64,000 bases of DNA from an uncultured Burkholderiales bacterium (GTDB taxonomy: Bacteria; Pseudomonadota; Gammaproteobacteria; Burkholderiales; Burkholderiaceae_C). The DNA is taken from assembly GCA_903864315.1 (NCBI GenBank), contig CAIPFK010000152.1, positions 1 to 64,000 of the forward strand, written 5' to 3'. Under the pieces are notes generated by a model. The model was not told where the DNA came from and made no database searches. It was given only the letters and a program-made list of their open reading frames with translations. Positions 1-8,237 of this stretch are shown here, piece after piece. Made by a program: the position numbers and the translations under genes. The first letter of the stretch is position 1. Each line of letters begins with the position of its first letter.

Positions 1-1259
1 AACTTGCTCCAACACTTGAACTGCAAAACCACAAAGACGAAGATATTCAAGGCCATCAAGGCTTCAATGATTTGGAATGCCCACCCCAACCCTCGAACTT
101 TGGGCTGATTCAAACTGACACCAGCTGTGACCGCAGGACTGATGGGTTCGAGGTGTTTCAAGGTGGCATCCAACTCTTGTATGGATTTGGCAAGTGGTGC
201 GATGAAGGCTTCGTAGTTCAAGGCGTAATACTCATCCCGGGTTCGCGGCTTGGACAAGCCTTGAAAGTGGGGAGCCACGTCTTCTACCTCTTGCGCAATG
301 AAGCCCAAGCGTGCATTGCCAGACGACTTCATGGTGAAGGCCTTGGGTTTCAATTGCCGCACAAAATTAAGCCCCAGAGTTGAAGGCCGGATGTTGTCCT
401 TCAATCTGCCATCTGACGTGGTGAACCAAGACGCCAAATTCCCCAGGTGCAGGTGGACCAAGTTCGCATCCCCAATCACCATCTTGCTGTTTTGTGCAGT
501 GGCGTTGGCCCCCAGATTGATGGCATTGTTGAGAACGCTGACAGGCACGGCGGCATTCGCACCCAATGCAATCAGACCACTGAATAGATTCGCCGATCTC
601 GCACTGATGCCAGACAGCGCACCCTCGTAATAACTGGTCTGGATCGCAGGAAAATCCTTGTCAACATCCCAAACCAATTGATATCCATTCTCGATCGACC
701 ATCTCCGCATGGCCAGGGACAAGGATTCATCGTCCAAACGAATTTCAAAACGCCCTTGACTTTGAGCCTCAACTGGGCCTTTCTCCGTGTTGATCATGGG
801 AGATTTTGGGAATGTCTGACCCGTTCGAGCAACTGGGGCAGCATAGTTCTGCGTCACTTGATCTTGACCAAGGGCATTTGAATTCAAAGGTTTTTCTTGT
901 GTGGAAGGTCTTTGACCAACGATGAGTAGCTTGTTATCTATGAGCTCCCAAGTGAATTGATATTTTTTTGAAAAATCAGTCAACACATTCAATACATAGG
1001 CATCTGAATAATTCCAACGTGTTAACACGTTTGGATCCACGTCCATGAACAACACCTTGACGTCTTGAGGAATGATCTTCTTGAGTGCATTGGCCAAGTT
1101 CATCTGGCCAGATCCATTGAATTTATCGCTCAAAAATGCTGGTGAGCCATAGGACAATTGGTTTGATGCATGGGCGTATTGATTGGCAACTGTCAGCATC
1201 AACAACAGAGTCTGGACAATCTTGTGTATTTTTTTGCAACAAAAATTGCGCTCTTGCAT
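1..1259 (-). CDS. TcpQ-domain / S74 intramolecular-chaperone chimeric membrane protein (3' end cut by window edge)
   Basis: The reading frame is open from the ATG at 1259 to the left edge, 419 residues without a stop. I read it from the reverse strand. Order of parts: signal-like hydrophobic stretch (about 14-30, ending AHA); a secretin-N0/PilL_N-like domain (about 50-116); a TcpQ-type domain (about 170-212, with WSIENGYQLVWDVD); a region rich in short beta-type repeats (215-280); a peptidase-S74 chaperone domain (281-370) with TSDGRLKDNI and LGFIAQEVEDVAP; then a membrane helix at about 393-413. Ser282 and Lys287 have the five-residue spacing of the autocatalytic Ser-Lys pair known in phage endosialidase chaperones and in MYRF. 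AGGGG sits 7 nt before the start. Domain assignments come from motif recall; the fusion itself is read directly. Function is unknown. One inference is a trimeric periplasmic protein that cleaves itself away from its C-terminal membrane anchor. Confidence 0.8.
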   Translation of the reverse strand, partial: MQERNFCCKKIHKIVQTLLLMLTVANQYAHASNQLSYGSPAFLSDKFNGSGQMNLANALKKIIPQDVKVLFMDVDPNVLTRWNYSDAYVLNVLTDFSKKYQFTWELIDNKLLIVGQRPSTQEKPLNSNALGQDQVTQNYAAPVARTGQTFPKSPMINTEKGPVEAQSQGRFEIRLDDESLSLAMRRWSIENGYQLVWDVDKDFPAIQTSYYEGALSGISARSANLFSGLIALGANAAVPVSVLNNAINLGANATAQNSKMVIGDANLVHLHLGNLASWFTTSDGRLKDNIRPSTLGLNFVRQLKPKAFTMKSSGNARLGFIAQEVEDVAPHFQGLSKPRTRDEYYALNYEAFIAPLAKSIQELDATLKHLEPISPAVTAGVSLNQPKVRGLGWAFQIIEALMALNIFVFVVLQFKCWSK

Positions 1260-1387
1260 CCCTTGGCCCCTATGATGTTCAATTTCACTCTTACTCAATT
1301 CAGGCCTATCGACATCAATTGACGCTTAGAAAAACCATGCGTTGTATTCTGCTCAATAATCAACACTAAAAATGTATTTTGCGAATG

Positions 1388-1414
1388 ATTAGTGGTACTT
1401 TTTACCTCTAATTT
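1388..1414. promoter_or_regulatory. Third, weaker copy of the shared palindromic motif
   Basis: Arms GGTA (1394-1397) and TACC (1403-1406) are separated by 5 nt and preceded by TTAGT. Length, arm bases, the TTAG flank and the trailing AATTT match the two better copies at 4583 and 6094, but the central A-tract is replaced by CTTTT. It lies about 130 nt upstream of the TcpQ/S74 gene start (1259) and upstream of a possible small gene at 1531. This is a regulatory site by inference only. Confidence 0.4.
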
Positions 1415-1530
1415 GGAAACTGATTATTGTTATAGAAATTAGAATGACTTTGTCCCTGTCGCAGGTCGGTGAACCATGGACTTCTTGAGTATTGAAATTT
1501 CAGATCTCTACGCGCGAGTGAAAATAAGGC

Positions 1531-1761
1531 ATGAAGAATGTCTATAGCCATGAAAGCCATCAAACGCAGTCAATGCACATGCGTGTTAAAAACCCTCAAT
1601 CCTCGTCAATGGATGAACGAGAGCTGAAGAGAATCCAAGAGGTGTTTGAGCGGATTTGGCTTGGGGGTATGCCTAACGCCCATCGGTCTTTAGAGACAAC
1701 TCAAGAACCCTCAGTAATGGAACAGATTCAACAGATCTTGACGATTGATGGGCTTGATTAA
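1531..1761 (+). CDS. possible small protein, 76 aa
   Basis: An ATG frame preceded by a weak AAGG-like ribosome site encodes a hydrophilic, mainly helical 76-residue product with a charged segment (DERELKRIQEVFERIW). It runs toward the response regulator gene and its last 51 nt overlap the 3' end of that gene on the other strand. I recognise no family. It could be a real small gene of the AT-rich block or a chance frame. The codons look reasonable and no other gene covers 1260-1710. Confidence 0.3.
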   Translation: MKNVYSHESHQTQSMHMRVKNPQSSSMDERELKRIQEVFERIWLGGMPNAHRSLETTQEPSVMEQIQQILTIDGLD

Positions 1762-2067
1762 AATGTCATCAAAACCAGAAGACAGTATTTCCTTCGTTTG
1801 CGCTTTCATGGCGTGGGCTGTGTAGGCGAATATTTTGATTCCCAATAGGTTTGCATTTGAGCGAATCGACTTGCAAACATCGATTCCACTGATTTTAGGC
1901 AGTGAAATGTCGAGCAAAACATAATCGTACTTGGTCTGCGATAAAAGTTTGAGCGCTTGGCTGCCATCAGCGCATTCGCTCACTTCGTACTTTTCTCGAC
2001 CTAAAATCAAGCCTGGCAACATGCGATTGGCCAAATCATCATCAACCACCAAAACAGTCTTGATCAT
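1711..2067 (-). CDS. single-domain response regulator (CheY-like receiver)
   Basis: A 118-residue protein made only of a receiver domain. The acidic pocket Asp9-Asp10-Asp11, the phospho-acceptor Asp53 (in LLDISLP), Thr83 and Lys105 (IKPI) are all present. There is no output domain, so it must act by protein contact, possibly as a relay from the kinase encoded just upstream. Its ATG overlaps the stop of the sensor kinase by 4 bp (ATGA), so the two are translationally coupled and form a two-component pair. The direct target cannot be told from sequence. Confidence 0.9.
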   Translation of the reverse strand: MIKTVLVVDDDLANRMLPGLILGREKYEVSECADGSQALKLLSQTKYDYVLLDISLPKISGIDVCKSIRSNANLLGIKIFAYTAHAMKAQTKEILSSGFDDILIKPINRQDLLNLFHY

Positions 2068-3815
2068 TTTTCCTCCATTGTCTGAATAGGAATTGTGAAA
2101 TAAAAGGTACTTCCAACGTTGCTGGCTGAATTAAAGTTAATTTCACCCCCCATCAGAGCCACCAACTTTTGTGTCAAGGCCAAGCCCATACCCGAACCAC
2201 CGTGAACACGGGTGATGAAATCTTCGTTTTGCCAAAACTTCTCAAAAACATGCGAATGCATTTCTTCAGGAATGCCATGGCCATTGTCTTTAATTGCAAA
2301 ATAGATAGAGTGGATGTCCTTGAGGTAATGAATTGACAAAACAATACCTCCCCCCTCTTTGCTAAACTTAATGGCGTTGTCTAGGAGGTTATTGAGTATT
2401 CGCCTCAAATTCAGTTCATCAAGGCATACCAGTGGAGGACAGTTGTCATCGTATTCAAATATCAATTCTAAATTTTTAGTACTGGTGCGACTGCGATGCG
2501 TTTGACACACATCATCAATGACTTGTTTTAAATTGAAAATTTCGTTTTGCAATATCATTCGACCCGATTCAACTTGGGTCAAATCCAACAGCATATTGAC
2601 CAATTTCAACAAATGGCGACTACTCTCATCAATGATTTGGGCAGGAAATTGAATCATGGGCTCTTGAGATGTGTAATGAATGTATTCAGCGTACCCAATG
2701 ATGCCGTTCAATGGCGTTCTTAGCTCGTGTGAAATTGATGACAAAAATTCAGATTTGTGTTTATTGGCTTTCGTCACCTCATGGTTACTTTTTATCAAAT
2801 CCAAATTCAGTAGTGCTAAACGATTCAAATACTCAACATTTGAAATCAAAAAAGCAATGGTGATCAGAGTGATCAAAACAGCAATCCCGTAGAAAATGGC
2901 TTTATGCCAGTTCGAGTCCGAACTCAGTTCCTCCACCTGTTGCCCCACAATGGTCACCAAGGGTTGATTGGATATCCTCTCAAATGCGTAGATGCGTTTG
3001 ACACCATCAAATAACTGATTGGAAGTGAATGTTCCTTCCAATTTATCGCCGACGTCCAGCGGAAAATTCACCATGGTATTTTCAACCGAATTAATCACCG
3101 TTGAACCAATTTGTATGGCCCTGGGCACACCATCCAAGCCAAACAGGGCAACAACGCCTTTATCACCAAGATCAATGCTCTTGTAAAAGTCAGTCAAATA
3201 ATTGGGGTTAAAGGAAACAACCGTCACCCCTGCAAAATCACCTTTTGCATCATCAATTCTTCGAGTCAGTTGAATAGAAAGTTTTTTACTGACACGCCCA
3301 ATGACAGGCTTGCTTACAAAAACGCCAAATGGGTAAATTTCTTTGTGTATCCTAAAGTGTTCGCGATCTGACAAATTCACTTTGGGCGGATTGGTCAGAT
3401 TAGAGAAAACATAATCCCCTGATGCGTCAATGATTCCTATTTGATTGATGAATCGGGTATCGATGACGCCATGATCAAAATAGTCGCTCAATGTTTTGTA
3501 CTTCAAATCGACACCATTCTCACGATGGAATTTGATGATTCTCAACACCTGATCTGATGTACTGATGGTCTGCTCTGTATGAGCCTTGAAACTCTTGGTG
3601 AGATTTTGTAAATTCAAGATGCCTTTTCTCAACACGAGCTGTTGATCAGCACTGACAGTGACATACGCTGCACCCCAAATGGCAACCAATAGCAAGGCCG
3701 TGATAAAGACTAGAAATCTCACCTTGGGTTGACCAGCCAACTTGCTAAATTTGAAAGGCAAGGCCTTCATTGAAAATTTACCACCGGGCAATTGAACCTT
3801 AATTTGCTCAAGCAT
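2064..3815 (-). CDS. membrane sensor histidine kinase with periplasmic Cache-type domain
   Basis: A 583-residue kinase from the ATG at 3815; a TTG at 3830 would add five residues. Two membrane helices (about 33-52 and 306-325) enclose a roughly 250-residue periplasmic region with dCache-like features. The cytoplasmic part has the H box SHELRTPLNGIIGY (phospho-acceptor His near 363), an N box (NNLLDNAIKFS), G1 (DNGHGI) and G2 (GSGMGLAL), so it is a HisKA plus HATPase_c kinase. It has no receiver or Hpt domain of its own; the receiver is the separate downstream gene that overlaps it by 4 bp. The ligand is unknown. The winged-helix gene lies 131 nt upstream in the same orientation, so the three may be cotranscribed. 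Confidence 0.92.
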   Translation of the reverse strand: MLEQIKVQLPGGKFSMKALPFKFSKLAGQPKVRFLVFITALLLVAIWGAAYVTVSADQQLVLRKGILNLQNLTKSFKAHTEQTISTSDQVLRIIKFHRENGVDLKYKTLSDYFDHGVIDTRFINQIGIIDASGDYVFSNLTNPPKVNLSDREHFRIHKEIYPFGVFVSKPVIGRVSKKLSIQLTRRIDDAKGDFAGVTVVSFNPNYLTDFYKSIDLGDKGVVALFGLDGVPRAIQIGSTVINSVENTMVNFPLDVGDKLEGTFTSNQLFDGVKRIYAFERISNQPLVTIVGQQVEELSSDSNWHKAIFYGIAVLITLITIAFLISNVEYLNRLALLNLDLIKSNHEVTKANKHKSEFLSSISHELRTPLNGIIGYAEYIHYTSQEPMIQFPAQIIDESSRHLLKLVNMLLDLTQVESGRMILQNEIFNLKQVIDDVCQTHRSRTSTKNLELIFEYDDNCPPLVCLDELNLRRILNNLLDNAIKFSKEGGGIVLSIHYLKDIHSIYFAIKDNGHGIPEEMHSHVFEKFWQNEDFITRVHGGSGMGLALTQKLVALMGGEINFNSASNVGSTFYFTIPIQTMEEK

Positions 3816-3946
3816 GATTCGAGCACTCAATGTTCACCGATTGCGCACATGGAATCAATCGATCCAATCGAATGGCCAATGCCTTTGGTTTGATAATCAT
3901 TTGGGTTATTGAGTGGAGATGATCAAAGAAGGTGATCGAACGATTT

Positions 3947-4552
3947 TTAAAATTGAAATGCAAACAAAGCAATTCTTTCGGCTTTGGTGAGCAAAGCACT
4001 TGGTTTCGTCAACTTGGCGGATGACTTGTTGTGCAAATAGTGATGCAAGTTATCCCGCAATGCTTGATGATTTTGATCGACCTGCGCAATGGCTTCGTGT
4101 TGTAAACCATTCATCTCCTTGATGTCGACCAAGTAATAGTGGGACCGCATGATGTAATGGATGCGCTCTGCATAGTTGATAATTTTTCGAATCAGCAAGT
4201 CAGTCGGTATCGCACACTTGGAGCGCATATCCTCACTCAATGAGACAAACTGTATCAGTCCCTCAGCATGAAAATCTTTCAATTTATTTCGAATTGATTT
4301 CTCGCTGATGCGATCGGTGCGGTAAATACTTTTAAGTGGCGTTGATTCGGTCAGCGGATTTGTTTGATTACAAAAGTAACTCAATAAATTCAAAAAGATA
4401 AAGCGTCCACTTGTCGTTTCCAATTCGGGTAAATTTTCATTTTCCCAATTTTGAATGGCCACGACGATCTGCAACATAGTTCTTATATTTTGAAACTGTT
4501 CCACTTCTTTTTTTGACTCCACATTGAATGTAAAGGTTGAATTTAATACCAT
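3947..4552 (-). CDS. winged-helix DNA-binding protein, candidate local regulator
   Basis: A 201-residue protein with a plausible winged helix-turn-helix at about 78-105 (RTDRISEKSIRNKLKDF, then AEGLIQFV), resembling MarR/PadR-type folds, followed by long helices that could dimerise. I do not recognise a named family. The strongest clue is position: a perfect palindrome lies 36 nt upstream of its ATG, and a close copy stands upstream of the DUF2063-DoxX operon. This suggests the protein represses or activates its own block. That link is inference; no binding residues can be tested by eye. Confidence 0.6.
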   Translation of the reverse strand: MVLNSTFTFNVESKKEVEQFQNIRTMLQIVVAIQNWENENLPELETTSGRFIFLNLLSYFCNQTNPLTESTPLKSIYRTDRISEKSIRNKLKDFHAEGLIQFVSLSEDMRSKCAIPTDLLIRKIINYAERIHYIMRSHYYLVDIKEMNGLQHEAIAQVDQNHQALRDNLHHYLHNKSSAKLTKPSALLTKAERIALFAFQF

Positions 4553-4582
4553 TCAAATTCGACGGACAATGGATGCTCACTT

Positions 4583-4608
4583 TTTAGTGGCAAAAATTGC
4601 CATCAATT
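4583..4608. promoter_or_regulatory. palindromic operator candidate, copy 1
   Basis: The core TGGCAAAAATTGCCA at 4588-4602 is a perfect inverted repeat with a 3-nt centre. With its flanks (TTTAG before, TCAATT after) 23 of 26 positions equal the copy at 6094. It sits between the doxX stop codon and the winged-helix gene start. On the minus strand a TATAAA hexamer (4607-4612) lies directly upstream, so a protein bound here would cover the expected transcription start. Confidence 0.6.
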
Positions 4609-5127
4609 TATACCTTGATCTGATCCAAAGTGGTTATAGGTTTTATAAGCTAATTCTTTGAGTCGATCGCAATGCATGTACCCGCATTTAGAGGTCATCA
4701 AAAGCAACAACAGCAATCCCCAGTGCAAATGATCATGCAAGGCAAGAGACGTCTCTTTTAAAACGCCATAGTATGAATAGAGGGCAAGCGCATTGATCAC
4801 AAAAAGTCCCAACGCAGACATCCTGCTCCAAAATCCAAGAACCAAAAGAAGGGAGAAACCCATCTCACCTGCTGTAATCATCACAGCCGCCCACCCTGGA
4901 TCGAGAAACGGCACTTGGTATTGATCGGCGAAAAGAAACAGCGTTGAACTCCAATTTTGAATTTTGGACCAGCCTGAAGTGAAGAAAATGTTGGCAATAT
5001 AGAGCCGGACCAACAACTCCGCCAGAGAATAAATCCATTTTCTGAGTTCATTTGATTTTTCCTGTTTCAACTGAATCTGACTGTATTCATATAGATTGAG
5101 TTTTAAGGGTTGCTGAAGTGTGTCCAT
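4603..5127 (-). CDS. DoxX family membrane protein
   Basis: A 174-residue protein from the ATG at 5127. I chose that start because AAGGGA precedes it and because a longer GTG/TTG frame would run into the upstream gene. Four hydrophobic segments follow a polar N-terminus of about 35 residues. The first helix region has the typical DoxX pattern of an arginine-bearing helix (LLVRLYIANIFFTSGWSKI). DoxX proteins are small quinone-interacting or redox-related membrane proteins, and they often accompany DUF2063 genes in copper and metallophore (buf/hvf) operons. Here the DUF2063 gene is 13 nt upstream, so the pair is one operon. Confidence 0.8.
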   Translation of the reverse strand: MDTLQQPLKLNLYEYSQIQLKQEKSNELRKWIYSLAELLVRLYIANIFFTSGWSKIQNWSSTLFLFADQYQVPFLDPGWAAVMITAGEMGFSLLLVLGFWSRMSALGLFVINALALYSYYGVLKETSLALHDHLHWGLLLLLLMTSKCGYMHCDRLKELAYKTYNHFGSDQGIN

Positions 5128-5140
5128 GAGAGTACATCCC

Positions 5141-5926
5141 TTAGTTGACAGAAATATTCTTGACCAGCAAACCAGCTTTTGACCATGACACCAAACAGTC
5201 AACCGCCCATTGATTCCAATTGTCCATTTTTATTTTTGACTTGCGTTTGACTTGCTTGAAGGAATCAACGAAATTGTGATTTCTTGCCACTGCTTTGATT
5301 AATTCATATTCAATCAACGGAATACATCTCCATTGACTGCTGAGATTTAAATCTCTCCAAACCAAGATTTTTTGCGCTTTTCGTACGGGTTGAATGGCCG
5401 TGATGTTCGCTGTCGATCGCATGGATTCCCAAAGTTGAGGCGCATTCCACTTGCAAGACAGTAGCGTCACCGATGAATGCACATACAAGACCATGTCTTG
5501 ACAATCTTGGGGCGTCTTCACTTGAAGTTCCTCCAAGTTCCATGAGCTGGCGTTCTGTGCGGCCAGACTGTAATGCAATGCCCATTCCAACTCAGCGAGT
5601 TCGATGAGCCAATTCAAAGTGAATCCATCCTGAGTTTGCGCTAGAAATTTGGGGAAATGCGCACCAAACCATTGAATCGCTTTGCCGACGGCAAGATGGT
5701 GAGTTATAAAATCTTTGGCAAGTTCACCAAACTTGGCATCTCCAATCACTTGATGAGTTACTTCAAAAATCTCACTCAAAACCTTCGTTAAACTCAGATT
5801 GGTAGCAAATTCATCAATTGAATTGATATTTAACGCACCACACCCACTACCAGCGTCTTTTATTGCTGACTGTTTCTTCAAAAACCGTGCTTGAAACTGA
5901 GATTGCCTTTCTATCACATGCATCAT
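5141..5926 (-). CDS. DUF2063 (HvfC/BufC-like) protein
   Basis: 261 residues from the ATG at 5926, which has GGGAG 4 nt upstream; a TTG at 5929 is less likely. The stretch from about 45 to 130 matches the DUF2063 pattern, a helical domain around HFPKFLAQ and then ELAELEWALHYSL. In buf/hvf operons such proteins partner a MNIO (DUF692) enzyme that modifies cysteines of a small secreted peptide. Neither the MNIO gene nor the peptide gene is present beside it; only the DoxX gene follows. So its role here may be different. A copy of the block's palindromic motif lies about 170 nt upstream. Confidence 0.65.
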   Translation of the reverse strand: MMHVIERQSQFQARFLKKQSAIKDAGSGCGALNINSIDEFATNLSLTKVLSEIFEVTHQVIGDAKFGELAKDFITHHLAVGKAIQWFGAHFPKFLAQTQDGFTLNWLIELAELEWALHYSLAAQNASSWNLEELQVKTPQDCQDMVLYVHSSVTLLSCKWNAPQLWESMRSTANITAIQPVRKAQKILVWRDLNLSSQWRCIPLIEYELIKAVARNHNFVDSFKQVKRKSKIKMDNWNQWAVDCLVSWSKAGLLVKNISVN

Positions 5927-6093
5927 CAAACTCCCAGGTATTTGTATTCATGAATGATTTTTTGTCAATTGAAATTGAGTGATGGTGATGACGTGCCTAG
6001 AATCAAATACAAGTTATCTCTTGCTGTCGTCCAACTGCCATTGACATATTAATTTTCTGACGCCGACAGTACGAAGAAAAACGTCAAGCATTA

Positions 6094-6119
6094 TTTAGCG
6101 GTAAAAATTACCATCAATT
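6094..6119. promoter_or_regulatory. palindromic operator candidate, copy 2
   Basis: GGTAAAAATTACC at 6100-6112 is a perfect inverted repeat. The 26-nt stretch differs from copy 1 at 4583 by only three bases, and two of the three are compensating changes in the arms (GGC/GCC against GGT/ACC). That is what an operator under selection would show. It stands between the divergent DUF2063 gene (start 5926) and the gene at 6201. Confidence 0.6.
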
Positions 6120-6200
6120 ATTCAGTTTTTAACTCGTTTGATTTTTAAGCCATTTATATTGGCTTCTCGTTTCAACCGTGCAATACCAACTTTTACCAAC

Positions 6201-6788
6201 ATGTCTGAATTTCAAACCCATGGGACAAATGCAAGCATCAATGGACGAACAGCATCCGATGCAATTCATTCCAATATCTCTTCCTTTTTCAAAGGCGAAA
6301 AATACCACTCCTTCACACCACATTCGTTGTGCATAGTCAAACATATCAATGATCAATTGATCGGATATCTTGAATATTCAAGCTTTGTCTATGGGCACGA
6401 ATTTTTCCATGAATATTGTGTACTGCACTTTCAAGACAGCGAGCAACAATGGAGATGGTTGGCTTCCCCTTTGAACCGCGATCAAAGCCCCGCATTCATG
6501 GTTTTTTTGTCCAATGTGCATTGGTTTGTAACCCTACACATGCAACTCGATCTCACTCAATGCCAATTTGAATTGAAAGAATTTGAAAAAAAAGAGTTTT
6601 ATATTTACCCAGTGTGGGAACGCGTTAAAAAGAAGGTTGGTCTACCCAATGAAATAAACACTGGGGGACTTAAAACCAGCACGACTCAGCGTTTGATTCA
6701 AGGCACTATAGAAATATTGAAAAAATTCAATGGCATTGATCGAACAGGTAAAGGGATCAACACACCACCCATCAACGCCAGTGTTTAG
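6201..6788 (+). CDS. hypothetical protein
   Basis: A 195-residue soluble protein from the ATG at 6201; a TTG at 6138 would extend it by 21 residues. No Shine-Dalgarno sequence marks either start. The middle part is aromatic-rich (YGHEFFHEYCVLHF, then W-rich) and looks like a beta-type fold; the C-terminal third is basic. There is no signal peptide and no membrane segment. I recognise no family. It is divergent from the DUF2063-DoxX operon, shares the intergenic palindrome with it, and is AT-rich like that block, so it probably belongs to it. Confidence 0.55.
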   Translation: MSEFQTHGTNASINGRTASDAIHSNISSFFKGEKYHSFTPHSLCIVKHINDQLIGYLEYSSFVYGHEFFHEYCVLHFQDSEQQWRWLASPLNRDQSPAFMVFLSNVHWFVTLHMQLDLTQCQFELKEFEKKEFYIYPVWERVKKKVGLPNEINTGGLKTSTTQRLIQGTIEILKKFNGIDRTGKGINTPPINASV

Positions 6789-6842
6789 CAAAGAGGATGG
6801 GCAAGTGAAGGCGCTCTAGGCTTTGCCCATGGCCAGAACGGA

Positions 6843-8237
6843 TTAAAGGGGCTGAGCAATCAAGTCATGGCCTTGGGTGTCCAAGACCAATGCCTGCACG
6901 AAACCGCCCACTTTCAAGCGTTGACTCAAGCGTTTGGGGGCCAACAAATGAACCACGCCATCGATCTCTGGTGCATCCGCATAACTTCGCCCCACGCCGC
7001 CGTTCTTTCCTGAAGCAGGGGCGTGGTCGATCAAGACTTGCATGGTCTGACCGATTCTCGAGCGAAGTTTTTGTGTTGAAACTTCTTCTTGAACTTTCAT
7101 GAAGCGCGCTTGACGCTCCTCTCGCAATTCTTGGCTGAGCATGCCAGGAATTTCATTGGCCAATGCACCTTTGACAGGACTATAGGCAAAGCATCCTGCT
7201 CGGTCGATTTGAGCTTCACGGACAAAATCCAACAAATGCTGAAATTCGGCTTCTGTTTCCCCAGGGAAGCCTGCAATGAATGTGCTTCGAATGACCAACT
7301 GCGGGCATTCACGACGCCAGGCCTGGATACGCTCTAGATTTTTTTCACCATTGGCTGGACGCTTCATGCGAGACAATACATCGGTGTGACTGTGCTGAAA
7401 TGGCACATCCAAATACGGCAAGACTGCACCCGTGCTCATCAGTGGCATCAAGTCATCCACACTGGGATAAGGATACACATAGTGAAGGCGCACCCAAGCT
7501 CCATGTTCCTGGGCCAAAACAGACAACTCCCGCACCAACTCCAAGGTCTTGGTTTTGATGGGCCTGCCTTGCCAAAATCCAGTTTGGTATTTCAAGTCCA
7601 CGCCATACGCCGAGGTGTCTTGACTGATGATCAGCAACTCTTTGACACCTTGCTCAAACAACACCTGAGCCTCAGACAAAACGTCACCAATGGGCCTTGA
7701 GACCAAGTCTCCGCGCATGGACGGAATGATGCAAAAGGTACATCGGTGATTGCAACCCTCTGAGATTTTCAGATAGGCGTAATGCTTGGGTGTCAATTTG
7801 ATACCAGCAGGAGATATCACCTGCGGAGTCAAATCTAAAAATGGCTGCGGCACTTGTGGCAAAAACTCTTGGACGCGGGCCATCACTTCATCGGTCGCAT
7901 GCGGGCCCGTCACGGCCAGCACTTTGGGGTGAGTTTTGAGGACCAAGTTTTGGCCATCGTCGTCGGACTTGGCCCCTAGACATCCCGTGACGATGACTCG
8001 TCCATTTTCGGTCAAGGCTTGAGAAATGGTGTCCAAGCTCTCTTTGACGGCATCATCGATGAAACCGCATGTATTGACGATCACCAAGTCGGCACCTGCA
8101 AAGGTCTTGCTGGTGTCGTACCCTTGGGCGTTCAAGCGGGTGAGTATCAATTCCGAATCGGTCAAAGCCTTGGGGCAACCCAGACTCACAAAACCGATTT
8201 TTTTGGGCGATTGGACAGTAGTGAGAGCATCATTCAT
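6843..8237 (-). CDS. rimO: ribosomal protein S12 methylthiotransferase RimO
   Basis: 464 residues, the usual length. The enzyme adds a methylthio group to the beta-carbon of the conserved aspartate of ribosomal protein S12. The N-terminal UPF0004 domain carries the three cysteines of the auxiliary iron-sulfur cluster (Cys21, Cys57, Cys86). The radical-SAM motif is Cys162-x3-Cys166-x2-Cys169 in [14 protein letters not shown] domain closes the C-terminus. It stands alone between the unrecognised gene at 6201 (convergent) and phaR (same strand, 160 nt upstream). Confidence 0.96.

Follow-up and report, generated by a model that had tools for sequence, protein, structure and literature searches.

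A probable locus-specific palindromic operator and a candidate MarR-like regulator beside a two-component pair in an uncultured Burkholderiales genome

We analyzed the first 64 kb (the window) of the 189-kb contig CAIPFK010000152.1 from an uncultured Burkholderiales bacterium (assembly G000, 3.42 Mb in 314 contigs, 89.6% complete), whose left end carries three copies of a palindromic motif, probably operators of a regulator encoded among them. The leftmost gene (3-1259, minus strand) encodes a TcpQ-like protein fused to an S74 chaperone domain (PF10671, 30.7 bits; PF13884, 45.9 bits) with, by eye, a probable C-terminal membrane helix, and it runs off the contig end. Three further minus-strand genes follow, encoding a single-domain response regulator that consists of a receiver only (1711-2067; PF00072, 94.2 bits, residues 5-115 of 118), a sensor histidine kinase with a dCache-type sensor (2064-3830; HisKA, HATPase_c, and dCache_1_like), and a MarR-like winged-helix regulator, the proposed ligand of the operators (3947-4552, with an alignment suggesting a GTG start at 4504). 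The HisKA/HATPase kinase directly adjoins the receiver without output domain, and the two form a two-component pair. Beyond them lie, also on the minus strand, a doxX-like gene (HvfX-like, 4603-5127; PF07681, with NF050144 below its cut-off) and a DUF2063 gene (HvfC-like, 5141-5929; PF09836, with NF050145 below its cut-off), and then a plus-strand gene without recognized family, ORF6138 (6138-6788, a later start at 6201 being possible), which is conserved beside operator copy 2.

Operator copy 1 (TTTTAGTGGCAAAAATTGCCATCAATT, 4582-4608, plus strand) is located upstream of the winged-helix, kinase, and receiver genes and overlaps the last codons of doxX, whose reading frame ends at 4603. Copy 2 (ATTTAGCGGTAAAAATTACCATCAATT, 6093-6119, plus strand) occupies the divergent region between the leftward DUF2063 gene and the rightward ORF6138, and copy 3 (AATTAGAGGTAAAAAGTACCACTAATC, 1387-1413, minus strand) is found upstream of the TcpQ/S74 gene. 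The three copies share the 23-bp dyad consensus TTAGYGGTAA-AAA-TTACCAYTAA and differ in their flanking sequences. A 26-mer search of the window with up to three mismatches finds copies 1 and 2 alone, at the positions given in a first-pass annotation of this DNA (4583-4608 and 6094-6119), and finds nothing in 100 dinucleotide shuffles. The same annotation described copy 3 as weaker; the copy exists, on the other strand, and it looked weak because it was taken on the plus strand. Its minus-strand core (1411-1393, TTAGAGGTAAAAAGTACCA) fits TTAGNGGNAAAAANTNCCA with no mismatch, as do copies 1 and 2, and the two further matches of this core in the window have three mismatches, the chance mean being 2.23 for the whole search at up to three. 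A dyad-symmetric matrix, built from nine sites with the three window copies among them, gives scores of 28.5, 31.5, and 30.4 for copies 1, 2, and 3, respectively, so that copy 3 is not weaker than the others. The best symmetry center is identical in all nine sites, with 78.9% of the cells paired versus at most 47.8% when the center is slid (G-T counted as a pair).

Winged-helix relatives at E ≤ 0.001 occur in 26 of the 84 genomes of the genus, G000 included. Close orthologues, besides that of G000, are found in G037 (81%), G035 (77%), G040 (52%), and G060 (56%, cut by a contig end). An even sample of 399 family genomes yields matches at E ≤ 1e-8 in three (G000, G046, and G169), and a pattern-based scan of one genome per species over 84,980 species, which sees close relatives only, yields three loci, apparently those of G037, G035, and G040. 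Close orthologues look confined to this genus. The site is present in all five genomes of the genus that keep a close winged-helix gene, with two sites in G037, two in G040 (one weak), and one each in G035 and G060. The operator is restricted to this locus and is conserved together with the winged-helix gene.

Two positions are conserved. The first is that of copy 2: G037, G040, and G060 each have a site that separates the winged-helix gene from a divergent ORF6138 homologue. G035 also has a site at this position, but its ORF6138 homologue, interrupted by two stops, is on another contig beside a rimO-like gene. In the same genome, an ORF that by eye is transposase-like (L037:11090-11685 and L101) adjoins both the conserved site and the broken homologue and lies between them, where the contigs end. 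ORF6138 homologues in G036 and G081, two genomes with no winged-helix relative at all, have no site (best matrix scores 3.8 and 1.4); that of G053, where the contig ends at the ORF, was left out of the comparison. Copy 2 is identical to its G037 counterpart at 25 of 27 bases, which makes it the best conserved 27-nt stretch of the intergenic region (median 17), and to that of G035 at 21 of 27 (best window 23, median 15). The second position is in front of tcpQ. A TcpQ homologue was sought in six genomes and detected in three, G000, G037, and G040, but not in G035, G060, or G075; all three have a site at this position, the G037 one matching copy 3 in place and the G040 one being weaker. Copy 3 shares 23 of 25 aligned bases with G037, and the best windows of this region (25/27, median 16) overlap the site with an offset of 3-8 bases. 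The flanks of G040 and G060, 87% similar, are too alike to discriminate.

A sequence-only model of the nine sites (R1), searched against G000, scores copy 2 at 26.6, copy 3 at 23.8, and copy 1 at 22.6 bits, and its sole other match at E ≤ 10 reaches 12.0 bits; among the 150 of 550 candidates that were scored, nothing elsewhere in the 3.4-Mb genome equals the copies. As R1 includes all nine sites, its ranking of them is circular, and the independent test is model R2, built from the three window copies alone and run over the 84 genomes of the genus. Outside G000, R2 finds G037 twice (24.0 and 20.5 bits) and G035 once (16.3 bits) at E < 0.1, all at this locus, and a G001 match of 14.1 bits at E 0.26. 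Both genus searches used stricter filters, only 90 candidates being scored in many genomes. An R1 match of 17.7 bits in G066, inside an ORF read as a GntR-type regulator, was attributed to chance. The pattern TAGNGGNAANNNNTNCCNNTAA, written after seeing all nine sites and informative on absence elsewhere rather than on sensitivity, gives 80 strand matches with at most one mismatch in the 84 genomes, versus 250 for the reversed control pattern. Thirteen of the 80 are at this locus and 67 elsewhere, one of these before the receiver and winged-helix genes of G075. All five matches without mismatch are at this locus (G000, G037 twice, G040, and G060), with none in the 79 genomes lacking a close winged-helix orthologue; the G035 site has one mismatch.

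The genes next to the operators, which the first-pass annotation called otherwise unrelated, are less so in the light of G040. Leftward of its site, this genome (L038) has genes for TcpQ (66.9 bits), a weak secretin-like protein (matches below the Pfam cut-off), a weak PilO-like protein (E 0.021), a T2SSE ATPase (203.7 bits), T2SSF (66.4 bits), and a PilS-type pilin (51.6 bits), a run which, judged by its domain content, is a type IVb pilus operon headed by tcpQ. G037 showed no more of this set than TcpQ and a shorter secretin-like gene. The TcpQ match is whole in G037 and G040 (2-78 of 80), with the secretin-like gene next; in the window it covers profile positions 2-45 of 80 only, followed by S74 and the contig end, and the pilus gene set was not found in the window up to that end, apart from this partial TcpQ-S74 gene. 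A second cluster resembling a type IVb pilus occurs on contig C122 of G000 (L085; PilS match of 26.6 bits, other genes by eye), and the operator motif is absent from it.

In the window, copies 1 and 2 flank the DUF2063 and doxX genes. At the same locus, G035 has DoxX only, G037 and G040 have neither, and the G060 contig has none between site and regulator; from this distribution we regard the pair as an optional insertion. Copy 2 had been assigned to these genes, and the rightward ORF6138 just downstream of it was absent from the first-pass annotation. Yet the site is kept beside this ORF in G037, G040, and G060, where DUF2063-DoxX does not stand between site and regulator, and to judge from this gene order copy 2 is not primarily the DUF2063-DoxX operator. 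The MNIO enzyme (PF05114/DUF692) was not found in G000 or G035, both incomplete assemblies; a control search with PF05114 found it in 2 of 14 known genomes. As for ORF6138, alignment matches at E ≤ 0.01 occur in 32 of the 84 genomes of the genus, G000 included. Its protein has no Pfam match, and its predicted model, with a confident core at about residues 36-134, has no PDB match at E ≤ 0.001. Some of its homologues adjoin a gene pair which we take to be cysE/trmJ-like.

The winged-helix protein was modeled from 26 aligned homologues, and the predicted structure shows helices, a recognition-type helix, and a two-strand wing, with block means of pLDDT above 80 at residues 21-60 and 81-140. Eight PDB structures match it at E ≤ 0.001, among them MexR, SlyA, RovA, and BpsR; we take all eight to be MarR-type regulators, which not every title makes explicit. 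A D-x-R motif in the wing is typical of the MarR family, and D108 and R110 are invariant in the 26 homologues. Because no curated MarR profile matches, we call the protein MarR-like, on the strength of its predicted fold, rather than a MarR member. It is the only recognized DNA-binding candidate among the regulator genes kept in relatives, since the receiver lacks an output domain and the kinase is of the HisKA/HATPase_c/dCache type (the G040 kinase has no dCache match). A distant system in G075 (24% identity) comprises a receiver-winged-helix pair and a kinase gene, and the two best matrix matches in its 7.3-kb locus score 12.8 and 12.9, one immediately before the receiver gene and one immediately before the kinase gene. 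Against a Markov null, their p-values are 0.0012 and 0.0014, with 0.0055 such matches expected per 659 bp of intergenic sequence; the locus was found via a one-mismatch pattern match, so that the first p-value is not blind, and the second site was not used in choosing it. Diverged winged-helix/kinase/receiver sets were also seen at L041, L043, and L044, those of L041 and L044 adjoining genes that presumably resemble minC, minD, and minE. At L042 and L045, other diverged winged-helix genes lie beside very large ORFs resembling, by eye, filamentous adhesins.

In our view, all three copies likely serve a single local regulator as operators, most plausibly the MarR-like winged-helix protein, which would bind TTAGTGGTAA-N3-TTACCACTAA as a dimer. 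The first-pass interpretation is partly supported: a candidate dimer-type operator specific to the locus, with the winged-helix protein and its predicted MarR-like fold as the natural ligand, agrees with the comparisons above, and neither outcome that the annotation named as refuting it (equal matches scattered elsewhere in the genome, or loss of the motif from relatives with the same genes) was observed among G000 and the genomes with a close winged-helix gene, whereas the statements that the motif precedes all three leftward units and that the genes are unrelated need correction.

Several results weigh against this reading. In G035 and G037, which both keep the winged-helix gene (G035 also doxX), the matching region shows no counterpart of copy 1, and this copy is seen in G000 only; the alignments of its region, with 13 of 18 aligned bases identical in G035 and a split by long gaps in G037, are not usable. 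The regulator and the site are kept in G035 (87% complete) and G060 without a detected TcpQ homologue. Searches with the winged-helix protein gave no family in Pfam (E ≤ 0.1) and, in NCBIfam, nothing of the MarR kind; its predicted structure has a moderate overall pLDDT of 72.8, and the TM-scores of the eight PDB matches on the query are modest (0.34-0.43). The sites of G040 and G060, which are more diverged, escape model R2 at E ≤ 0.3. The symmetric matrix has off-locus matches in G021 (23.6), G036 (18.1), G044 (16.8), and G060 contig C43 (16.7, coding), the first of which equals the weakest accepted site; it is in a coding region, inside an ORF read as a short-chain dehydrogenase, and we ascribe it to chance. 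The G075 sites were retrieved by this matrix only and listed by neither covariance-type model (one search to E 5). Other winged-helix relatives, more distant, contributed 23 upstream regions, in which the enrichment is not significant (Fisher p 0.055), and we do not extend the motif to the wider winged-helix family; the G075 locus, whose sites precede receiver and kinase genes, was kept out of this comparison and tested apart. Lastly, the first-pass annotation had taken compensating changes as an argument for a bound dimer. The GGC/GCC versus GGT/ACC pair is real; it is broken in four other sites (one in G035, two in G040, and one in G060), and two-sided changes are no commoner than in shuffles, 145 of 500 of which reach the observed value (G-T again a pair). 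We therefore dropped this argument, as shuffles do as well, and the dyad symmetry itself stands.

The most credible alternative is that function is limited to copies 2 and 3, copy 1 having arisen recently as a by-product, for instance of the DUF2063-DoxX insertion. The winged-helix operon would then be under the control of the divergent region, or under no such control. This agrees with G035 and G037, which have no site upstream of the winged-helix gene except the divergent one, with the overlap of copy 1 and the doxX 3' end, and with the outer half ATCAATT common to copies 1 and 2. However, copy 1 keeps 8 of 10 inner dyad pairs, one of them via a compensated change, and scores 22.6 bits, and we regard this alternative as rather improbable.

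Only slightly less credible is that the sites are real operators bound by another protein, either an unlinked regulator or the DUF2063 protein, with the winged-helix gene as one target. Pfam describes PF09836 as a putative DNA-binding domain, the winged-helix protein is a ligand by prediction, and the 23 regions of distant relatives lack significant enrichment. Against such a ligand speak the site in five of five genomes with a close winged-helix orthologue and the zero-mismatch match in none of the other 79. In addition, DUF2063 is not at the locus in G037 and G040, nor between site and regulator in G060 (a statement on the locus only, without genome-wide DUF2063 search, the G060 contig ending inside the winged-helix gene), and an unlinked regulator should have other targets, of which none is seen in G000.

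An element acting as RNA, that is a terminator or a structured leader, is very unlikely. The motif is a short inverted repeat near gene ends and copy 1 overlaps the doxX stop, but none of the three terminator-like matches in 1200-6900 is at a copy, no Rfam family matches in 1200-6400, and copy 3 is on the strand opposite to copies 1 and 2; the terminator and Rfam searches leave such an element unsupported. Hardest to credit is a mobile-element repeat or insertion target, for although the block is AT-rich (G+C 0.40-0.42 at 1001-7000 versus 0.47-0.58 from 10001 on), genes between the sites come and go among relatives, and the transposase-like ORF adjoins the G035 site, the motif has no copies elsewhere in the genome, the flanks of the copies differ, and positions relative to genes are kept across species.

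Returning to a local MarR-like regulator, we propose that it would bind the 23-bp dyad as a dimer and thereby repress its own operon, the divergent gene, and the tcpQ-headed operon. Most MarR proteins repress, and repression seems somewhat more probable here than activation. Copy 2 is enclosed by a weak sigma-70-like pair on the minus strand (TTGATG, 16, AATAAT); the region has fewer sigma-70-like matches than shuffles (7 versus a mean of 12.8), and for this reason promoter positions do not tell activation from repression. The kinase and the output-less receiver may switch repression through a contact between receiver and regulator. In G000, DUF2063-DoxX would have been inserted and the pilus part reduced, within the sequence available before the contig end, to the TcpQ-S74 fusion.

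More tentatively, we hypothesize that the MarR-like repressor, the sensor kinase, and the output-less receiver constitute a three-component switch, a single module in which phosphorylation of the receiver would decide the hold of the repressor on the 23-bp operators. A family of ligand-gated repressors might in this way have been rewired to phospho-signaling, and a diverged form of the module would recur next to other loci of the genus. Should the receiver indeed work through the MarR-like protein, this would show how a two-component pair that lacks an output domain can acquire one by recruiting a separate repressor, and it would supply a type IVb pilus with a regulator. A local operator of a local regulator is ordinary in kind, and the interesting part is the combination of genes. 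Among the papers listed in literature searches aimed at this circuit, titles and abstract openings contained no description of a MarR-type protein, a kinase, and a single-domain receiver controlling a type IVb pilus, which is no proof of absence. With an operator defined and candidates at hand for both the regulator and the signaling path, a poorly annotated gene row in a largely uncultured Burkholderiales genus becomes a regulon that can be put to the test.

Among known systems, the G040 gene run is akin to type IVb pilus operons of the TCP/R64 kind, in that genes for TcpQ, a secretin-like protein, an ATPase, T2SSF, and a PilS-type pilin follow in a row, whereas the window holds only a partial TcpQ fused to S74 before the contig end. 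To our knowledge, the known type IVb pilus examples are not controlled by a MarR-kinase-receiver set. Autoregulated operators of the MarR family combine a winged-helix protein with a palindrome of about 20 bp placed before its own operon and neighboring genes, and the locus resembles them in its predicted winged-helix regulator, its palindrome, and the sites before the regulator operon and its neighbors. Unlike usual MarR systems, the regulator is encoded in one gene run with a histidine kinase and an output-less receiver, and unlike usual members it is too divergent for a Pfam MarR match. The adjacent DUF2063 and DoxX genes of the window recall the Bufferin/Hvf clusters, in which these genes stand side by side (PMC12452194); the difference is that no MNIO enzyme (PF05114) was found in the incomplete assemblies G000 and G035. 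The nearest analogy for the proposed signaling step is the pair VemR-HrpG of Xanthomonas campestris, where a receiver-only protein is reported to act via physical interaction with a transcription regulator (PMC9923393). The partner proposed here differs from HrpG in being MarR-like and adjacent, the contact being one that we infer, and the likeness lies in a receiver-only protein that may act through a transcription regulator.

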